Positions 8,919 to 28,821 of a DNA stretch of 36,770 nucleotides are shown here, piece after piece (the stretch's first letter is position 1; each line of letters starts with the position of its first letter). Position numbers and translations under genes: made by a program. The stretch is from Candidatus Cryptobacteroides onthequi (GTDB taxonomy: Bacteria; Bacteroidota; Bacteroidia; Bacteroidales; UBA932), in the NCBI GenBank assembly GCA_018066125.1, contig JAGHSA010000074.1, forward strand, positions 1 through 36,770, read 5' to 3'. A model generated the notes under the pieces. The model worked only from the letters and a program-made list of their open reading frames with translations, did not search any database and was not told the DNA's origin.

Positions 8919-8948
8919 CAAAATTACAAATTTATTTTTTTACTCAAA
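8919..8948 (-). promoter_or_regulatory. Promoter of the GH92 operon
   Basis: On the minus strand TTTG (complement of 8945-8948), an 18-base spacer and TAATTTTG (complement of 8919-8926) fit the Bacteroidetes -33/-7 promoter closely. A second -7-like box, TAAATTTG, lies just upstream. The start would be about 15 bases before the GH92 ATG. Confidence 0.55.
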
Positions 8949-20571: not shown

Positions 20572-21735
20572 ATGAAAAAGACACTCGTCACCATAATCTG
20601 CCTTGCCCTCGCATTCGCGGCACAGGCTCAGGACAGAATAGAACTCATCCATGGTCCATATCTCCAGGATATAGGCACCACAGAAGCCACCGTGGTATGG
20701 ATAGCCAGCACCAATTCTGTGGGATGGGTCGAGCTTGCACCTGATGACGGAAGCCACTTCTACGAGACTGAGAGGCCGAAATATTTCGACAGCAGGAACG
20801 GCATAAAGACTGAGTCAAGGGTGCACTCCGTGAAGATCACCGGTCTCAAGCCGGGCACCACGTACAGATACAGGGTATTCTCTACAGAAATCACTGAGCA
20901 CAAGGCCAATTTCGTCAGCTATGGCAGGACAGCTTCCACAAGGGTTTTCCAGAAAGAGCCTCTCCGCCTGACTACTCTGGACCCAGAGAAAGAGAGTGTG
21001 TCTTTCGCAATGCTCAATGACATGCACGGAGACACACTGAAGCTTGAGAAACTCATCGGATATTGTGACATGGCCAAGACCGACATGGTGCTCTTCGTCG
21101 GTGACATGGTGTCGATTTTCAACAGCGAGGAGCAGGTGTTCAGCGGATTCATGGACAAGGCCACGGAGATTTTTGCTGCCGAAAAGCCTGTGTTCTATAC
21201 AAGGGGCAACCATGAGACCAGAGGGGAACTCGCATACTGTTTCCAGGATTATTTCTCTCCTTCAAAGGAGCACATCTACTATATGTTCAGGCAGGGCCCT
21301 GTATGCTTCATCGCTCTTGACAGCGGTGAGGACAAGCCAGACAGCGATATCGAGTACAGTGGCATCAATGTGTATGACGAGTACCGCAGCGAGCAGGCAG
21401 AATGGCTGAAGAAGGCCGTGCAGAGCGAAGAGTTCAGGACAGCGCCATTCAAGATTGTGACCTGCCATGTGCCCGCGATGGGCGGCTGGCACGGCGAAAA
21501 GGAGGTAAAGGAGAAGTTCATCCCTATCCTCAATGAGGCCGGCGTGGACATCATGCTCACCGGCCATCTCCACAGGCGCATGCACCGCAATGCCGGCGAT
21601 GACGGTGTCAATTTCCCGGTGCTCGTGAACTCCAGTGAGGACGTGCTGCAGTGCACCGTCAGCGGCCAGGAGCTCAAGATCCGCATCGTGGACCTGCAGG
21701 GCAAGACGGTCGACACTCTTACCATCAAGAAATAG
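20572..21735 (+). CDS. Purple-acid-phosphatase-like metallophosphoesterase (exported)
   Basis: A 387-residue protein with a signal peptide (AFAAQAQ). Residues about 25-110 form a fibronectin-III-like purple acid phosphatase N-domain (IELIHGPYLQ, TTEATVVWIAS, LKPGTTYRYRV). The catalytic domain shows the metal-binding blocks NDMHGDT, FVGDMV, TRGNHETRG, VTCHVPAMGG and LTGHLHRRMH, in the usual order. It should hydrolyse phosphate esters in the periplasm using two metal ions. The first block is DMHGD rather than the common DxH/GD variants, but the order and spacing are normal. It is a single gene divergent from the GH2 operon. Substrate unknown. Confidence 0.9.
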   Translation: MKKTLVTIICLALAFAAQAQDRIELIHGPYLQDIGTTEATVVWIASTNSVGWVELAPDDGSHFYETERPKYFDSRNGIKTESRVHSVKITGLKPGTTYRYRVFSTEITEHKANFVSYGRTASTRVFQKEPLRLTTLDPEKESVSFAMLNDMHGDTLKLEKLIGYCDMAKTDMVLFVGDMVSIFNSEEQVFSGFMDKATEIFAAEKPVFYTRGNHETRGELAYCFQDYFSPSKEHIYYMFRQGPVCFIALDSGEDKPDSDIEYSGINVYDEYRSEQAEWLKKAVQSEEFRTAPFKIVTCHVPAMGGWHGEKEVKEKFIPILNEAGVDIMLTGHLHRRMHRNAGDDGVNFPVLVNSSEDVLQCTVSGQELKIRIVDLQGKTVDTLTIKK

Positions 21736-22072: not shown

Positions 22073-22156
22073 ACATGCAGCCAGAGGTGGCCTGCAGATC
22101 TTTTTCCTACATTACAGCGTTTTGGACACACTTGATGAAACACTACCGATGCTTAC
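22073..22156. repeat. Repeat R2, copy 1 (downstream block of the Rhs-immunity modules)
   Basis: The first 21 bases (22073-22093) are identical to 23641-23661. The following 50-60 bases are related but diverged, with small insertions, ending at a shared CGATGCTTAC/GGACGCTTAC. On the minus strand it follows the module terminator. Confidence 0.75.
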
Positions 22157-22198
22157 TTGCATGCTGCCATTTCATCATATACCCGTCGAACAAATATG

Positions 22199-22226
22199 AA
22201 AAAGCCTGCGTCGGTTAGGCGCAGGC
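22199..22226 (-). terminator. Intrinsic terminator after the immunity genes (module B)
   Basis: On the minus strand GCCTGCG...CGCAGGC (22204-22226) forms a stem followed by five T. It lies about 10 bases after the stop of the 22237-22815 gene. It differs from the module A terminator by only two bases within the hairpin. Confidence 0.8.
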
Positions 22227-22236
22227 AGGAATGAAG

Positions 22237-22815
22237 TTATAAAATATTGTCCAAATAGTAGCAAACTGAATAATCAAAAACTTCGGTACTTGTCATGTCG
22301 CAGTCAAATGAAGCAAGATAGGATAACACCATTTCCTGAGTAAGCCTATCTCTCTTATATTTTGATTTGTACTTCTCAGTCTGTTCATATTCTCGAGGAA
22401 CGCCTTGTTCATAATACACCCACCTGTCATTCTCCTTCATTGAGTACACATACCTGACAGTGTGATATGTTTCATTTACTTTACCATGAAAATAATGGAT
22501 TCCCTGTTCCCAGCCATGTTCAGGGAGATAAATATTGAACCCCGCAAATTCAAGACTTAAATCTTCACATAAACGATTAATTGCAAAATAATGATTACTT
22601 CCCTCATCGCTCATGAAAATGCAATACGGCTTACCTTTAGGATTCCATAGATATGCATGACAAGTATGTCCTCCTCGTAGCAATCGCATTGTTAATGCCG
22701 CTTCTGACATGTCGCCAGAGAATTTACTTACAACAATACGTCTATTCCAAGTCGTAAACATATCTCGTAGTGTTTCGATATCCTTGAAGATAATGATACA
22801 GTGGGTTGGGTACAT
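22237..22815 (-). CDS. Hypothetical protein, probable immunity protein (module B, second gene)
   Basis: A 192-residue, probably cytoplasmic protein with no signal or membrane segment. Not recognised as a named family. It is rich in aromatic residues, and its last third has WVYYEQGVPREYEQ followed by KRDRLTQEMVLSYLASF; I have the impression that this layout recurs in Bacteroidetes proteins beside Rhs toxins, but cannot verify it. It is AT-rich against its surroundings, follows another small gene by 59 bases, and ends at a conserved terminator. Placed directly after an Rhs toxin remnant, an immunity role is the simplest reading. The ATG has no clear ribosome-binding site; a Met at codon 19 is an alternative start. 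Confidence 0.6.
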   Translation of the reverse strand: MYPTHCIIIFKDIETLRDMFTTWNRRIVVSKFSGDMSEAALTMRLLRGGHTCHAYLWNPKGKPYCIFMSDEGSNHYFAINRLCEDLSLEFAGFNIYLPEHGWEQGIHYFHGKVNETYHTVRYVYSMKENDRWVYYEQGVPREYEQTEKYKSKYKRDRLTQEMVLSYLASFDCDMTSTEVFDYSVCYYLDNIL

Positions 22816-22874
22816 ATAATACTATTATTTGGGTGTGAATGTCACTATTTTTTCGGAATTATTCCACTTGAGTC

Positions 22875-23348
22875 TTACTTCCAGAGATTACGACTCAAAC
22901 TGTCATAGTAGGCAAGAAGTATACTATCTTTCGGGACATATACCGCATCCTTGTAGATACCCTGCATCTCGCATATGCCAGTTGGGTGTAATGAGTCTGC
23001 CGCACGCTTTATATACGGGAACACCGTGTTGAATGACTCCTGGGGCATGATGTTCATTCTTTTGGCATGATAAAAATCACTGACAGCTAGGTACAACAAC
23101 GCGCATGCATCAGGATTATTGTCAACATCTGCGAGAAACATTGCATAGGGAATTGATGCTTCATGACCATATCTTTCGAAGAGATGATCAAGATACTCAT
23201 AGTCATGATATTTTACAATATTCTTTTGTAAATATTCACGATAACTCCTGTTGGATTTTTGGATGGCTAACTGTCTGCCCAAGTAGGCATTTGCGCATAG
23301 TGACACTATCAATGATGATAAGATGACAATCTTTGATATCGTTTTCAT
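22875..23348 (-). CDS. Hypothetical exported or membrane-anchored protein, probable immunity protein (module B, first gene)
   Basis: A 157-residue protein with a hydrophobic N-terminus (residues about 5-22) that is a signal peptide or a single anchor; the rest should lie in the periplasm. No known domain recognised; helices with a DNNPDACALLYLAVSDFYHAK segment suggest a small helical repeat fold. The ATG overlaps the TAA of the Rhs-toxin tail (TAATG at 23346-23350), which is translational coupling typical of toxin-immunity pairs. Codon and base use are AT-rich. A periplasmic location would imply that the lost toxin acted there; this is inference. Confidence 0.65.
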   Translation of the reverse strand: MKTISKIVILSSLIVSLCANAYLGRQLAIQKSNRSYREYLQKNIVKYHDYEYLDHLFERYGHEASIPYAMFLADVDNNPDACALLYLAVSDFYHAKRMNIMPQESFNTVFPYIKRAADSLHPTGICEMQGIYKDAVYVPKDSILLAYYDSLSRNLWK

Positions 23349-23548
23349 TATTTCATTAGTCTTTCATTTAACAACTCAAGATAATTGTGCAAATCCGACT
23401 GATTGCCCGGCACTATGTCTAATAATGAGCTTCCGTCCGCCGTCTCGGCGTATGACGGCAAAGTTAGGCAATTGCACGATATTTCCAATCCCTTCCTGCC
23501 GTCGCTTTTGTACCACCAAACAGGCTTTTCCGTACGAAACGGACAGAT
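23348..23548 (-). pseudogene. Rhs/YD-repeat toxin remnant, module B (tip plus in-frame C-terminal tail)
   Basis: On the minus strand the frame reads PFRTEKPVWWYKSDGRKG, LEISCNCLTLPSYAETADG, then SSLLDIVPGNQSDLHNYLE and ends NERLMK-stop at 23348-23350. The DGRKGLEIS-N-LNLP...DGSS pattern is the YD-repeat core of Bacteroidetes Rhs proteins. After GSSL the sequence departs from the Rhs pattern and gives a 25-residue tail, the likely end of a toxin domain. No start codon or upstream Rhs body is present, so this is a fragment. It is coupled to the downstream immunity gene by TAATG. Confidence 0.7.
23424..23542. repeat. Repeat R1, copy B (Rhs tip)
   Basis: 119 bases aligned without gaps to 24537-24655, with six mismatches counted by eye (about 95% identity). 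It encodes the conserved Rhs tip on the minus strand. Confidence 0.9.
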
Positions 23549-23585
23549 TGAGGCGATTGGTACGGAAAGACCGGCTTTGTGGTAC
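23510..23585. repeat. Imperfect inverted repeat
   Basis: GTAC-bounded 26-base arms at 23510-23535 and 23560-23585 are inverted copies with 21 of 26 bases matching, around a 24-base loop. The left arm lies inside repeat R1; the right arm has no counterpart beside copy A. Confidence 0.6.
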
Positions 23586-23640
23586 GAAGACTCTGTATCA
23601 GCTCTCGAATGATGGCAGGCTCGGTGGCATCTTCAGCGGT

Positions 23641-23710
23641 ACATGCAGCCAGAGGTGGCCTACGGGGCTTTCCCTACATCACAGCATCACGTGGTTCATC
23701 GGACGCTTAC
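23641..23710. repeat. Repeat R2, copy 2
   Basis: Identical to 22073-22093 over its first 21 bases and related for about 50 more. It lies between the module A terminator and the module B Rhs tip. Confidence 0.75.
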
Positions 23711-23735
23711 GAAAATACGAATGGCATAGGCAAAG

Positions 23736-23763
23736 AAAAAGCCTGTGTCGGTTAGACGCAGGC
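23736..23763 (-). terminator. Intrinsic terminator after the module A immunity gene
   Basis: On the minus strand GCCTG-c-GTC, loop TAACC, GAC-a-CAGGC (23741-23763), then five T. It stands six bases from the stop of the 23770-24333 gene and is nearly identical to the module B terminator. Confidence 0.8.
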
Positions 23764-23769
23764 GAGGGA

Positions 23770-24333
23770 CTAAGATTTTTTAATAGACAATGCTCTATGT
23801 CTGTTTAATACTGTTATTTCGCAATCAAAACAGGTATATAATAGTAACAATTTAGGCGATGCATAAAAGAAAGGTGTTCCACTAGATTCATCCCTTCTTT
23901 TCATCGGTATGTGTAAGCTATGCTGATAGTATGAGCGATCATCATACAATAGAGTATCTGGAGCATCCTTTTTCCATGTAAAAAAAACCTCAGGATCAAT
24001 TATGTCATCCTCATAAACTCTATTATATAGGATGTAATCAAGACTATCGCACGGGTCATCACATTTATATAAACTATGAATATCCTTAGATATTAGAACA
24101 AACAATTGATTTTTACGAGGGCGGTCTACAACTTTATAATAGTTATCGGAACCATTTACCTGAAAAAGAATCGTCCGCTCTTTTGTTGAATAACGATATG
24201 TAAGAAAAGCCAGTATACCAAGACATATTATTGCACAAATACAATATTGCAATAATCTCAGTGTTTTAATTGCCTGTTTGGGATAAGTTAGACAAACTAT
24301 CAGCAATAATGATAAAAAGATTACAGCGAGCAT
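23770..24333 (-). CDS. Hypothetical membrane protein, probable immunity protein (module A)
   Basis: A 187-residue protein with two predicted membrane helices (about 1-16 and 27-45) and then a hydrophilic domain of about 140 residues. It is not recognised as a family. A Shine-Dalgarno-like AGGAG directly precedes the ATG. The base composition is strikingly AT-rich (many ATA, TTA, AAT codons), unlike the btu and PUL genes on both sides. It begins 32 bases after the stop of an Rhs-toxin tail and ends at a conserved terminator, the position of an immunity gene. Two helices with a large domain would suit protection against a toxin acting at or across the inner membrane; this is inference. Confidence 0.65.
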   Translation of the reverse strand: MLAVIFLSLLLIVCLTYPKQAIKTLRLLQYCICAIICLGILAFLTYRYSTKERTILFQVNGSDNYYKVVDRPRKNQLFVLISKDIHSLYKCDDPCDSLDYILYNRVYEDDIIDPEVFFTWKKDAPDTLLYDDRSYYQHSLHIPMKRRDESSGTPFFYASPKLLLLYTCFDCEITVLNRHRALSIKKS

Positions 24334-24365
24334 CTCCTAAAACTTATTTGTTTGAAATTACATAA

Positions 24366-24660
24366 TTATTTCGCCAAAATACTTGGATATCCAATAAAGT
24401 AATAACCATACTTTTGAGCATTTACAGAACTATCTGATTCTTTTGTATAACTGAGTTTTCCATCAAAAATTGAACTAATAGTTTGCAATAAATCAAATGC
24501 GACACCTTGGTCCCGTCAGCCAGGTAGGTGTATGTCAATGAGCTTCCGTCCGCCGTCCCGGCGTGTGATGGCAAATTTAGACAATTGCACGATATTTCCA
24601 ATCCCTTCATGCCGTCGCTTTTGTACCACCAAACAGGCTTTTCCGTACGAAACGGGTAGA
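24366..24660 (-). pseudogene. Rhs/YD-repeat toxin remnant, module A (tip and frame-shifted C-terminal tail)
   Basis: The minus strand reads FRTEKPVWWYKSDGMKGLE, ISCNCLNLPSHAGTADGSS, LTYTYLADGTKVS. YLADGTK is a diagnostic Rhs/YD-repeat end motif in Bacteroidetes. Beyond it, the in-frame reading soon stops, while the -1 frame gives an AT-rich tail AFDLLQTISSIFDGKLSYTK ending IGYPSILAK-stop at 24366-24368. This tail looks like the end of a toxin, so a frame break lies near 24500. There is no Rhs body upstream; the btuBG terminator is about 50 bases away. Confidence 0.7.
24537..24655. repeat. Repeat R1, copy A (Rhs tip)
   Basis: Direct repeat of 23424-23542 (119 bases, six mismatches, no gaps), 1113 bases apart. 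Encodes the conserved Rhs tip. Confidence 0.9.
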
Positions 24661-24703
24661 TGTGTACGGCAGGATGGAGCGTTCCGGAAACAGGCCCGGC
24701 GCG

Positions 24704-24736
24704 AAACAAAAGCGCCGCCACTGAAAAGTGGCGGCG
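24704..24736 (-). terminator. Intrinsic terminator of the btuB-btuG operon
   Basis: On the minus strand CGCCGCCAC-TTTTCA-GTGGCGGCG (24713-24736), a nine-pair perfect stem, is followed by CTTTTGTTT. It lies 12 bases after the btuG-like stop codon. Confidence 0.88.
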
Positions 24737-24747
24737 GCATCAAGGCA

Positions 24748-26667
24748 TCAGTCGGCGGCGAAGTGGGACGGGCAGACGCCGACCTGTTCTTTGGACTGGA
24801 ACTGGCCGGCAGCGTTGAAGCGGGAGAGATGTCCGCGGTTCACATAGTTGCCGGCGTCGGTGATGAAGACCTCACCGTCAGGAGCGATGAATATGCCATA
24901 TGGAGCAACCTGAGCCTTGATGGCATCGGACACACTCTCGGAGATGATTCCCTGAGTGACAGCAGGTGTTCCGCTTGACATGTCGATCGTATTGAGATAG
25001 TAGGTATATCCGTATGTGACATAGCTGAACTCGGAGCCGACCGTGTAGAACTTACCTGCATAGGTCGTCGCGTAGGTTGATGGTCCCTCCAGATAATCTA
25101 CCACTTCCTGGGTCTCACAGTCGAAAATAAAGGACGCAGCAGGAGTCATGTAGTAGTCTCCAGAGCTGTTCACAAGGACATATCTAGGATAGCGGTCGTT
25201 CTGGACGAAAGCGCCGTAGAGGTTGATGAGACCGGTGTCAACCTTCTTTATTTCCTTCATGGTCTCGGCGTCGATAACCGAGATGCTCTGCTCATATCCA
25301 TGGGAACCGAGGTATGCATAACCGCCGGAATTTGCCACAAAGAGTTTTCCGTCATATATGACAATGCCTTCTGGCTCATATCCTGTCTTGCAGGTAGCAA
25401 CCACATTGAAGGAAGTGAGGTCGATCTTGGCAACATATCCATCCTCGGCATAGGAAGTCACATAGGCATACTTCTGGGACGGGTCCACAGCCACTTTGCG
25501 GCAGTTGGCCACACCTTCGGTCTGGGCGATGGCCTTGCCATCGCGGTCACAGAACTGAATGATGTTTGAGCCATTGAGTACGATGATCAGATAGTCATCG
25601 GTCAGGGCAATGTCGTTGCCTGTATCACCTAGAGGGGTGCTGTTCACTGTAGAGAACCACGAGTTTGTGACTGTCCATGTGGCCGGATCGATCTTGGTAA
25701 GGCTGGCATTGTTGGAGCCGAAGCCGCCCTCATTGAGGAGATAGAGATTGTTGAACTTTCCCCTCTGGCTGACGGTCAGTGTGCCAAAGCAGTCTCCCTT
25801 GCGGCTGTCGATCACCTTGATGGCACCGGTACGCGCATAATCTCCTTCATTGGCGGAAACGGAGACATTGACCTTGTAGTCAGCCATGGCCCTGGTCTGA
25901 GCCTGCGAGATCCACTCCGGGAATTCAAGAGTGTAATCCACATTGGTGGAGAAGCTGAACTGGAGATCGCCACCGGCTGCAGGCATCGTCGCACTGTCGA
26001 GCACGGTGTTGAATGCGCGGGTCTCGAAGTTGACTTTCAGCACCTTGCTGTTGGTATTGGCGCCGGCAGAGGCATTGTCGATCACGGTCGCCACGATATT
26101 GACAGAAGTACGCTCCCCTGCCTCGAATGCCACCGTGCCGACACCGTCCTTGATGTCAGAAACGACAAAATTCATGTCCGAGTCGCCATACACGACCACA
26201 TAAGGGTCAAGTGCATCTGTCACTTTGAATGTGGCGACACCTGAATAAACTCCGACCTCGCAGCCGGTAAATTCGAGATTGATCACACGTGGATTGCGGG
26301 GCAGTGCGAGACGGCCGCCATCCTCAAGATTGAAGATGACATAGTCATTCTCTATCACCACGCTCTTGATGCCGGCAATGCCGTCGATAACTGACACTCC
26401 CGGCTCGCCCTGGGCGCCGTCGACGCCATTCTTCAGAGAGAAGCTCTCTCCATTTGACAGGAGCATTTCGAATCCCGACGCGGTTTCACGGACCTCCTTG
26501 ACATAAACCTGAGCCTTTACGAGAGCCTCGATGTCGCTCACGCTTTTCACGAGAGAGTCCATTTCTCCCTCCAATACATCCATGCGGTCGTTGAGATCGG
26601 CAAGACAGGATGTCAGGCCGAATGCGGCAACGAGCGCGAAAAACGGTCTAAATAGATTTCTTTTCAT
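24748..26667 (-). CDS. BtuG-like surface corrinoid-binding lipoprotein (coiled coil, BACON domain, beta-propeller)
   Basis: A 639-residue lipoprotein with Cys21 (FGLTSC). Residues about 24-60 form a short coiled coil (LNDRMDVLEGEMDSL) as in DUF4988 proteins, followed by a GVDGAQGEPGVS hinge. A BACON-like domain covers about 215-305 (PAAGGDLQFSFSTNVDYTLE to GTLTVSQRG). The rest is a YncE/DUF5074-type beta-propeller (LYLLNEGGFGSNNASLTKID, then repeated blades such as DPSQKYAYVTSY). BtuG of Bacteroides is a surface beta-propeller that captures cobalamin and passes it to BtuB. The ATG overlaps the btuB stop (ATGA), and the operon has a cobalamin riboswitch, which supports the role. The extra N-terminal domains are longer than I would expect for BtuG. 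Confidence 0.8.
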   Translation of the reverse strand: MKRNLFRPFFALVAAFGLTSCLADLNDRMDVLEGEMDSLVKSVSDIEALVKAQVYVKEVRETASGFEMLLSNGESFSLKNGVDGAQGEPGVSVIDGIAGIKSVVIENDYVIFNLEDGGRLALPRNPRVINLEFTGCEVGVYSGVATFKVTDALDPYVVVYGDSDMNFVVSDIKDGVGTVAFEAGERTSVNIVATVIDNASAGANTNSKVLKVNFETRAFNTVLDSATMPAAGGDLQFSFSTNVDYTLEFPEWISQAQTRAMADYKVNVSVSANEGDYARTGAIKVIDSRKGDCFGTLTVSQRGKFNNLYLLNEGGFGSNNASLTKIDPATWTVTNSWFSTVNSTPLGDTGNDIALTDDYLIIVLNGSNIIQFCDRDGKAIAQTEGVANCRKVAVDPSQKYAYVTSYAEDGYVAKIDLTSFNVVATCKTGYEPEGIVIYDGKLFVANSGGYAYLGSHGYEQSISVIDAETMKEIKKVDTGLINLYGAFVQNDRYPRYVLVNSSGDYYMTPAASFIFDCETQEVVDYLEGPSTYATTYAGKFYTVGSEFSYVTYGYTYYLNTIDMSSGTPAVTQGIISESVSDAIKAQVAPYGIFIAPDGEVFITDAGNYVNRGHLSRFNAAGQFQSKEQVGVCPSHFAAD

Positions 26668-28634: not shown

Positions 28635-28671
28635 GATAAAAGCCTCCCGCCTTCCCGCAGGTTACTGAAAT

Positions 28672-28795
28672 CATCGTTCTGGCAGGTATTCTGGCTTGTC
28701 CTCTAAAGAGGATTTACAGTAGCGGGAGCTGTCTCGGTCTTTCACCGTGTTTCCCTGTTGATCCGGACGCTGGGTCCGGAAACCAAAACTGACGC
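28672..28795 (-). ncRNA. Cobalamin riboswitch upstream of btuB
   Basis: The minus strand has the conserved core: CAACAGGGAAACACGGTGAA, then GACAGCTCCCGCTACTGTAA and the B12 box AAGCCAGAATACCTGCC. The hairpin TCCGGACCCAGCGTCCGGA comes before the core. CTCCCGC of the core (28722-28728) is complementary to the GCGGGAG that holds the btuB ribosome-binding site (28644-28650). Binding of cobalamin would therefore be expected to hide the site and lower btuB translation; this mechanism is inferred. Confidence 0.93.
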
Positions 28796-28821
28796 AAAAT
28801 TACAAAAATTCCCTATATTTG
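28795..28821. promoter_or_regulatory. Back-to-back -7 boxes for btuB and the DUF486 gene
   Basis: TAATTTTG on the minus strand (28795-28802) fits the btu leader start; TATATTTG on the plus strand (28814-28821) fits the DUF486 gene, whose ATG is 22 bases on. Both match TAnnTTTG exactly. Clear -33 boxes were not found. Confidence 0.5.

Follow-up and report, generated by a model that had tools for sequence, protein, structure and literature searches.

Several described systems displace toxin ends or keep immunity genes without their toxins. In enterobacteria and bee gut symbionts, the C-terminal ends of Rhs proteins are displaced into arrays with orphan tips (PMC8125069), and the immunity-gene arrays of the Vibrio cholerae type VI secretion system (T6SS) grow by sequential displacement (PMC5361080). 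Rhs end displacement and orphan immunity genes are thus well described (PMC8125069, PMC5361080, PMC10539506). Among the acquired-immunity clusters of Bacteroidales, rAID has a tyrosine recombinase and conserved intergenic motifs as its defining features (PMC12247911), and in Salmonella internal promoters lie within the rhs open reading frame (ORF) and are common to main and orphan rhs genes (PMC7043789). Here we analyze a locus of Candidatus Cryptobacteroides onthequi in which two tandem modules begin with short Rhs tips and end with small AT-rich genes. It lies in a window of 36,770 nucleotides (contig JAGHSA010000074.1 of assembly GCA_018066125.1), by which we mean the whole stretch of DNA that was analyzed. 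The observation, made in an initial annotation of the sequence, is confirmed; its interpretation, an immunity store, is partly supported.

We conclude, with a probability of roughly 0.6, that the locus is a free-standing pair of displaced Rhs modules in which the core and almost the entire toxin are gone and the immunity genes remain, each module with an intragenic promoter. The Rhs sequence of the module heads, together with the relatives of one of the genes that stand behind Rhs sequence elsewhere, identifies the modules as displaced, detoxified Rhs immunity modules. The Rhs ends would have been displaced by recombination, and the core and nearly all of the toxin would have been lost, with the immunity genes staying. 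A promoter of the form TTG-N19-TAnnTTTG, inherited from the rhs coding sequence, would drive each module. The toxin 3' stub would serve as leader, and the immunity gene or genes and then a terminator would complete an autonomous transcription unit. Its products, if expressed, would protect the cell against Rhs toxins from neighbors that still carry them.

Rhs origin and architecture of the modules

The array is on the minus strand, as are all of its features described below, between a BtuG-like gene (24748-26667) and a metallophosphatase gene (20572-21735). In each module, a 125-nt head is followed by a short toxin 3' stub that is unlike that of the other module, one or two AT-rich genes, a terminator, and a 31-nt flank repeat. 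Module A has one gene (A, 187 aa, 23770-24333) and module B has two (B1, 157 aa, 22875-23348; B2, 192 aa, 22237-22815), with a GC content of 32 to 40% compared to 51% for the window. The tandem arrangement reported initially is borne out by the heads (repeat D1; 24537-24661 in module A and 23424-23548 in module B), which are 94% identical. So are the near-identical terminators: the 29-nt repeats at 23735-23763 (module A) and 22198-22226 (module B) are 93% identical, and both fold as hairpins followed by T runs (z of -3.5 and -3.2), with neither among the terminators listed by a simple terminator scan.

By homology, the heads are true Rhs sequence, as had been proposed for the short tip in each module. 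A hidden Markov model (HMM) built from 12 Rhs frames of the same genus matches 24497-24619 (E = 8e-10) at model positions 282 to 322 of 483. This model gave no match to tip B (23420-23506, most of which lies in head B); tip B matches tip A with an E value of 7e-11. Head A comprises the tip and about 42 nt in which no Rhs homology was recognized. A search with the 40-aa tip found matches in 56 of 121 genomes of the genus (E ≤ 1, own genome included), among them open frames of about 2000 aa, and a tip profile made from 12 such proteins matched in at least 141 of 400 genomes (E ≤ 0.01). Whole-module DNA had no match in 60 relatives.

The toxin domain is not retained. What is left are stubs of 40 codons in module A (24366-24488) and about 24 codons in module B (23348-23423), putative toxin ends by their position. 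The tails do differ between modules, as initially described; that of module A is out of frame with its tip, and that of module B is in frame. The stop codon of tail B overlaps the start of B1 by 1 base, an arrangement that coupling between a toxin end and its immunity gene would predict.

A promoter-like element in the heads

The vegetative promoter consensus of Bacteroidota consists of TTG, 18 to 20 nt, and TAnnTTTG. In 141 upstream regions from the genus, TAnnTTTG occurs 70 times; resampled sequence has 12 occurrences, and the opposite strand of these regions has 38. TTG precedes it by 18, 19, and 20 nt in 5, 9, and 6 cases (0.2 to 0.3 in resampled sequence; 2, 2, and 5 on the opposite strand), a total of 20 against fewer than 1 expected and 9 on the opposite strand. 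We take this enriched motif to be the Bacteroidota promoter. With a spacing of 19, the consensus occurs exactly twice on both strands of the window, at 24601 and 23488, and both occurrences are in the heads; a spacing of 18 adds one match, at 8947, and a spacing of 20 adds none. No other such match was found between the heads and genes A and B1. The two elements, TTG-N19-TAAATTTG (24572-24601) and TTG-N19-TAACTTTG (23459-23488), both conform to the consensus. Of the 8 positions at which the heads differ, the element contains two: a spacer position and a base that the consensus leaves unspecified in the -7 box. Given a promoter match in each head and the terminators, each module reads as promoter, leader, immunity gene(s), and terminator. 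The initial annotation had the array reduced to tips and immunity genes; for the tip, a DNA element that has been kept, probably as a promoter, is a better reading than reduced coding sequence.

The element can be followed across the rhs genes of the genus. Codon 288 is TTG in 45 of 148 distinct tips, of which 34 have pairwise identities below 90%. In the 34, codon choice is strongly skewed: AAT for Asn293 (30/33), AAC for Asn296 (28/30), CTT for Leu295 (25/28), and TTG for Leu297 (27/30), where usage in intact rhs genes is 48%, 52%, 22%, and 14%, respectively. Third positions vary at codons such as 291, 298, and 301. A 33-nt weight matrix built from 28 of the TTG-288 tips gave 57 distinct matches, 50 of them inside Rhs-profile matches; a single resampled copy of the loci gave no match. 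The element was then counted in loci L122 onward, drawn with profile A1 among the matches listed, with earlier loci left out. Among these matches, it is present in 7 of 66 intact genes, 3 of 18 displaced modules that keep the core, and 18 of 36 displaced modules that have lost it (Fisher test: lost versus intact, 2e-5; lost versus kept, 0.02; kept versus intact, 0.44); 10 tips at edges, 4 of them with the element, were set aside. In a broader sample, chosen in part for resemblance to the window tip, the counts were 7/69, 7/24, and 24/45, respectively. Several fragments keep little beyond the element, and it is located 73 to 163 nt before same-strand genes in G339, G149, G177, G395, and G085, including a 1474-aa lipoprotein-like gene and a 656-aa gene.

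These patterns suggest a broader proposal, which we put forward tentatively and with the odds somewhat against it. The 33-nt element TTG-N9-TACAAT-N4-TTAACTTGCC, found in the rhs genes of one Bacteroidales genus, may be constrained at the DNA level and be a portable promoter with which orphan immunity genes outlive both the toxin and the whole rhs gene. The result would be a scattered, self-expressed immunity store, with ordinary neighboring genes captured in places.

A number of observations weigh against the promoter interpretation. In its genus-wide form, the element has TTAACTTG at its end instead of TAnnTTTG, and ordinary genes show no enrichment of the TTAACTTG form upstream (0 in 141 regions). 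A perfect consensus match at codon 288 was found, among the 148 tips, in window tip A and in one intact gene of G085 only, besides window tip B. The weight matrix was built from the same tips that were later classified. Codon choice is also biased outside the element (Asp283 GAC, 27/30; Gln289 CAA, 9/10; Phe290 TTC, 11/13), so shared ancestry of one rhs subfamily may explain part of the pattern. Half of the core-lost modules are without the element. The idea that every displaced module starts at it was rejected, as 43 modules start later, 41 of them without the element within 500 nt and 2 with it upstream. Copies without a nearby same-strand ORF occur in L050, L051, L165, L181:6160, and L200, and the gene next to the element at L195:8678 has a canonical promoter of its own.

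The main rival accepts the same displaced modules and sees in the conserved 33-nt stretch a site of recombination or cassette exchange, or a homologous recombination hotspot, rather than a promoter. Such a site could explain why some fragments begin at or near the TTG (L022, L178, and L181) or end right after TTAACTTGCC (L195, L186, and L202), why copies of the element are on both sides of the 1474-aa gene in L181, and why TTAACTTG is not a general promoter box. However, no tyrosine recombinase or integrase family was found among the 12 flanking proteins scanned, which are a subset of the genes in the window. Further, the window and G085 variants depart from the rest by gaining a perfect -7 box in register, and displaced fragments with the element start at various model positions between 216 and 288, not at a fixed one. 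We consider this explanation unlikely, with perhaps one chance in a handful of being right.

Putative immunity genes, recurrence, and the question of a parent

None of genes A, B1, and B2 matches a Pfam, PADLOC, or NCBIfam family above the cut-off. B2 has four relatives (E < 1e-6) among 400 genomes of the genus, one in the cognate position, one in an Rhs array, and two without Rhs. In G146, the relative starts about 35 nt behind a displaced Rhs core-toxin frame of 420 codons, with more Rhs debris following, and the toxin end resembles Ntox10 (25.0 bits, just under the cut-off of 26.8). In G421, the relative is the last member of an array of Rhs fragments that have toxin ends, and the 6.8 kb fetched upstream of it contain no parent gene. 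No Rhs match was found near the relatives in G089 and G358 within the 10.5 and 19 kb fetched; the one in G089 adjoins a barstar gene (41.7 bits). The ratios of nonsynonymous to synonymous substitution (dN/dS) of three B2 relatives are 0.10, 0.14, and 0.42, the last based on 8 changes. The genomic context supports assignment of B2 to an Rhs-toxin immunity family. Widespread occurrence of the small proteins away from Rhs genes had been named as evidence against an immunity role; the two relatives without Rhs nearby go some way toward this, and the other two are with Rhs. A structure model of B2 from 6 sequences had a mean pLDDT of 60.5 and a pTM of 0.62 and was not interpreted.

Two side observations concern the B2 family. 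Outside the genus, a relative was found at the contig start of a Paludibacteraceae metagenome-assembled genome (MAG; L264:65-1060), with Rhs debris immediately after it. Further, a block of about 620 to 640 bp with a B2-family gene is shared at 97 to 98.6% DNA identity by three MAG species, from buffalo, yak, and roe deer (L103:296-886, L104:8126-8716, and L105:9262-9852). The block ends sharply just outside the gene, its surroundings differ, and apparently it reflects a single-gene transfer. A short AATTTATCT repeat was noted at both ends, by eye only.

Gene A had no convincing relative in the 400 genomes, and B1 had none in the homology searches made, so the immunity role that the initial annotation gave all three genes is based on position for these two, and on the Rhs context of its relatives for B2. 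Marginal matches of A in the same genomes, including acetyltransferase-like and other unrelated proteins, were rejected, as were those of B1, including two nuclease-like proteins aligned over the N-terminal region, which we take to be S1/P1-nuclease-like. We infer that A and B1 are immunity proteins, with their lack of convincing relatives counting against this. Of the membrane or signal segments attributed to the small proteins, those of A, a putative membrane protein, and B1, which has an N-terminal hydrophobic segment, are plausible by eye; none is evident in B2.

Parentless modules recur in the genus. We fetched 83 stretches, picked for Rhs tip matches (mostly short frames) or B2 relatives, and in 25 of them displaced Rhs pieces lie 2 kb or more from the edges, with no Rhs frame of 1000 aa or more. 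Of the others, 10 have such a frame, 45 reach an edge, and 3 are without an Rhs match. Because the choice was biased to short frames, 25/83 indicates recurrence, not frequency. The locus is therefore not the singular immunity store it was first taken for. Toxin ends persist in some of the 25, which are therefore not all detoxified. G339 and G177 share an immunity gene that follows a tip and a toxin stub, with a dN/dS of 0.16 for the gene and a nonsense codon in the G177 stub. For the stub itself, the ratio is likewise low (0.13, from few sites) and may be a trace of a toxin that was once active.

Separately, the 1474-aa lipoprotein-like gene is present in two species (L181:6128-10765 and L174:10153-14680), where it is preceded by an Rhs tip that carries the element and by a leader resembling a toxin stub. 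The two loci share a 4.7-kb block that is 98% identical, and L181 has a second element after the gene.

A second rival treats the array as decaying rhs debris of no present function, with frames still open as decay is recent and with codons that reflect the ancestry of one rhs subfamily. The frame break in tail A, the low GC content, and the lack of convincing relatives of A and B1 fit this view. So does the codon bias beyond the element, as in the present sample constraint is inseparable from ancestry. Against it are the three ORFs that remain intact, the two terminators, the two promoters that match the consensus, and the low dN/dS of comparable immunity genes. The 34 divergent tips also hold the codons of the element while third positions vary at codons such as 291, 298, and 301. 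We judge decay improbable.

No intact rhs gene was seen in the window, as first described, and hence none upstream of the modules. The assembly does, however, contain another rhs 3' end. With an Rhs core model, the end of contig C18 is the only match above the cut-off in the assembly (65.6 bits; cut-off, 32.5). Two other Rhs models gave no match there, and a 2083-aa Rhs query matched C18 and the window tip only. As C18 breaks off within the Rhs core, a repeat probably interrupted the assembly there, and the same could have happened at the window locus. The BtuG-like gene has matches (E ≤ 1e-30) in 12 of 151 genomes, own included; loci fetched from 4 of the 11 other genomes contained no Rhs match, one contig ending about 430 nt past the gene, and so no parental arrangement was recovered. 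That a parent rhs gene beside the tips was dropped in assembly because rhs cores are repeats is very unlikely: the C18 break and the state of the assembly (85% complete, 75 contigs) are compatible with it, but the contig is unbroken through the array, the terminator of the BtuG-like gene lies about 50 nt before the repeat, and parentless pieces recur in the 25 other stretches.

The rhs end in C18 (L019:12862-14210) has a toxin part that matches Peptidase_M91 (31.2 bits; cut-off, 25) and a 187-aa gene behind it, with a stop/start overlap similar to that of tail B and B1. A 26-nt sequence after module B (22124-22149) is 96% identical to one after the C18 rhs locus (L019:12563-12588), so rhs loci in this genome may have a 3' flank in common.

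Further features and comparison with known systems

The array starts after the terminator hairpin of the BtuG-like gene (24713-24736; a 10-pair stem followed by a T run). The 31-nt flank repeats (D3), at 23641-23671 in module A and 22073-22103 in module B, are 87% identical. An imperfect palindrome before module B (inverted repeat I4, 23507-23588) has 35-nt arms at 23507-23541 and 23554-23588. One arm is within the 125-nt repeat, so half of the palindrome also heads module A; it was rejected as an unusual fold (z of only -1.3). An opposite-strand ORF of 161 aa across head B (23323-23808) was taken as spurious. A cobalamin riboswitch (28665-28802) upstream of a btuB-like gene fits the initial naming of the neighboring genes.

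If displaced modules do carry their own promoters, this would explain how immunity genes stay expressed after the weapon is lost, as a signal inside a conserved part of the weapon gene would travel with the antidote. Orphan immunity genes could then be found by head sequence alone, without protein homology, and this would offer a testable route to the cognate toxins in uncultivated gut Bacteroidales.

The locus overlaps only partially with each of the known systems. As in the displaced Rhs tips of enterobacteria and bee symbionts, an Rhs fragment, a toxin end, and an immunity gene are repeated in tandem and are unrelated between modules; unlike there, no intact rhs gene is upstream, the toxins are stubs, and each module has its own promoter-like head and terminator (PMC8125069). 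With the V. cholerae arrays, it would share orphan immunity genes kept after loss of the effector and array growth by displacement. Those arrays are in the 3' region of T6SS clusters, whereas the one described here is free-standing and Rhs derived (PMC5361080). The resemblance to AID-1 and rAID is in the order, Bacteroidales, and in the co-oriented small genes for putative orphan immunity proteins (PMC12247911). The initial annotation held that the structure differs from these clusters, and it does: the absence of a recombinase family among the proteins scanned sets the locus apart from rAID, and Rhs tips are present instead (PMC12247911).

The closest parallel for the promoter is Salmonella, where a promoter within the conserved rhs coding sequence also serves the toxin/immunity end (PMC7043789). 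The phylum and promoter type are different, and here the candidate promoter is kept after the toxin is gone. The position differs as well, about 190 model positions before the core end here and 89 nt before the PxxxxDPXGL motif in Salmonella (PMC7043789). Searches of open-license papers gave none whose title and abstract opening describe such an rhs promoter in Bacteroidota, which is weak evidence of absence. This locus extends the Salmonella example by a candidate from Bacteroidota whose promoter may have outlived the toxin.

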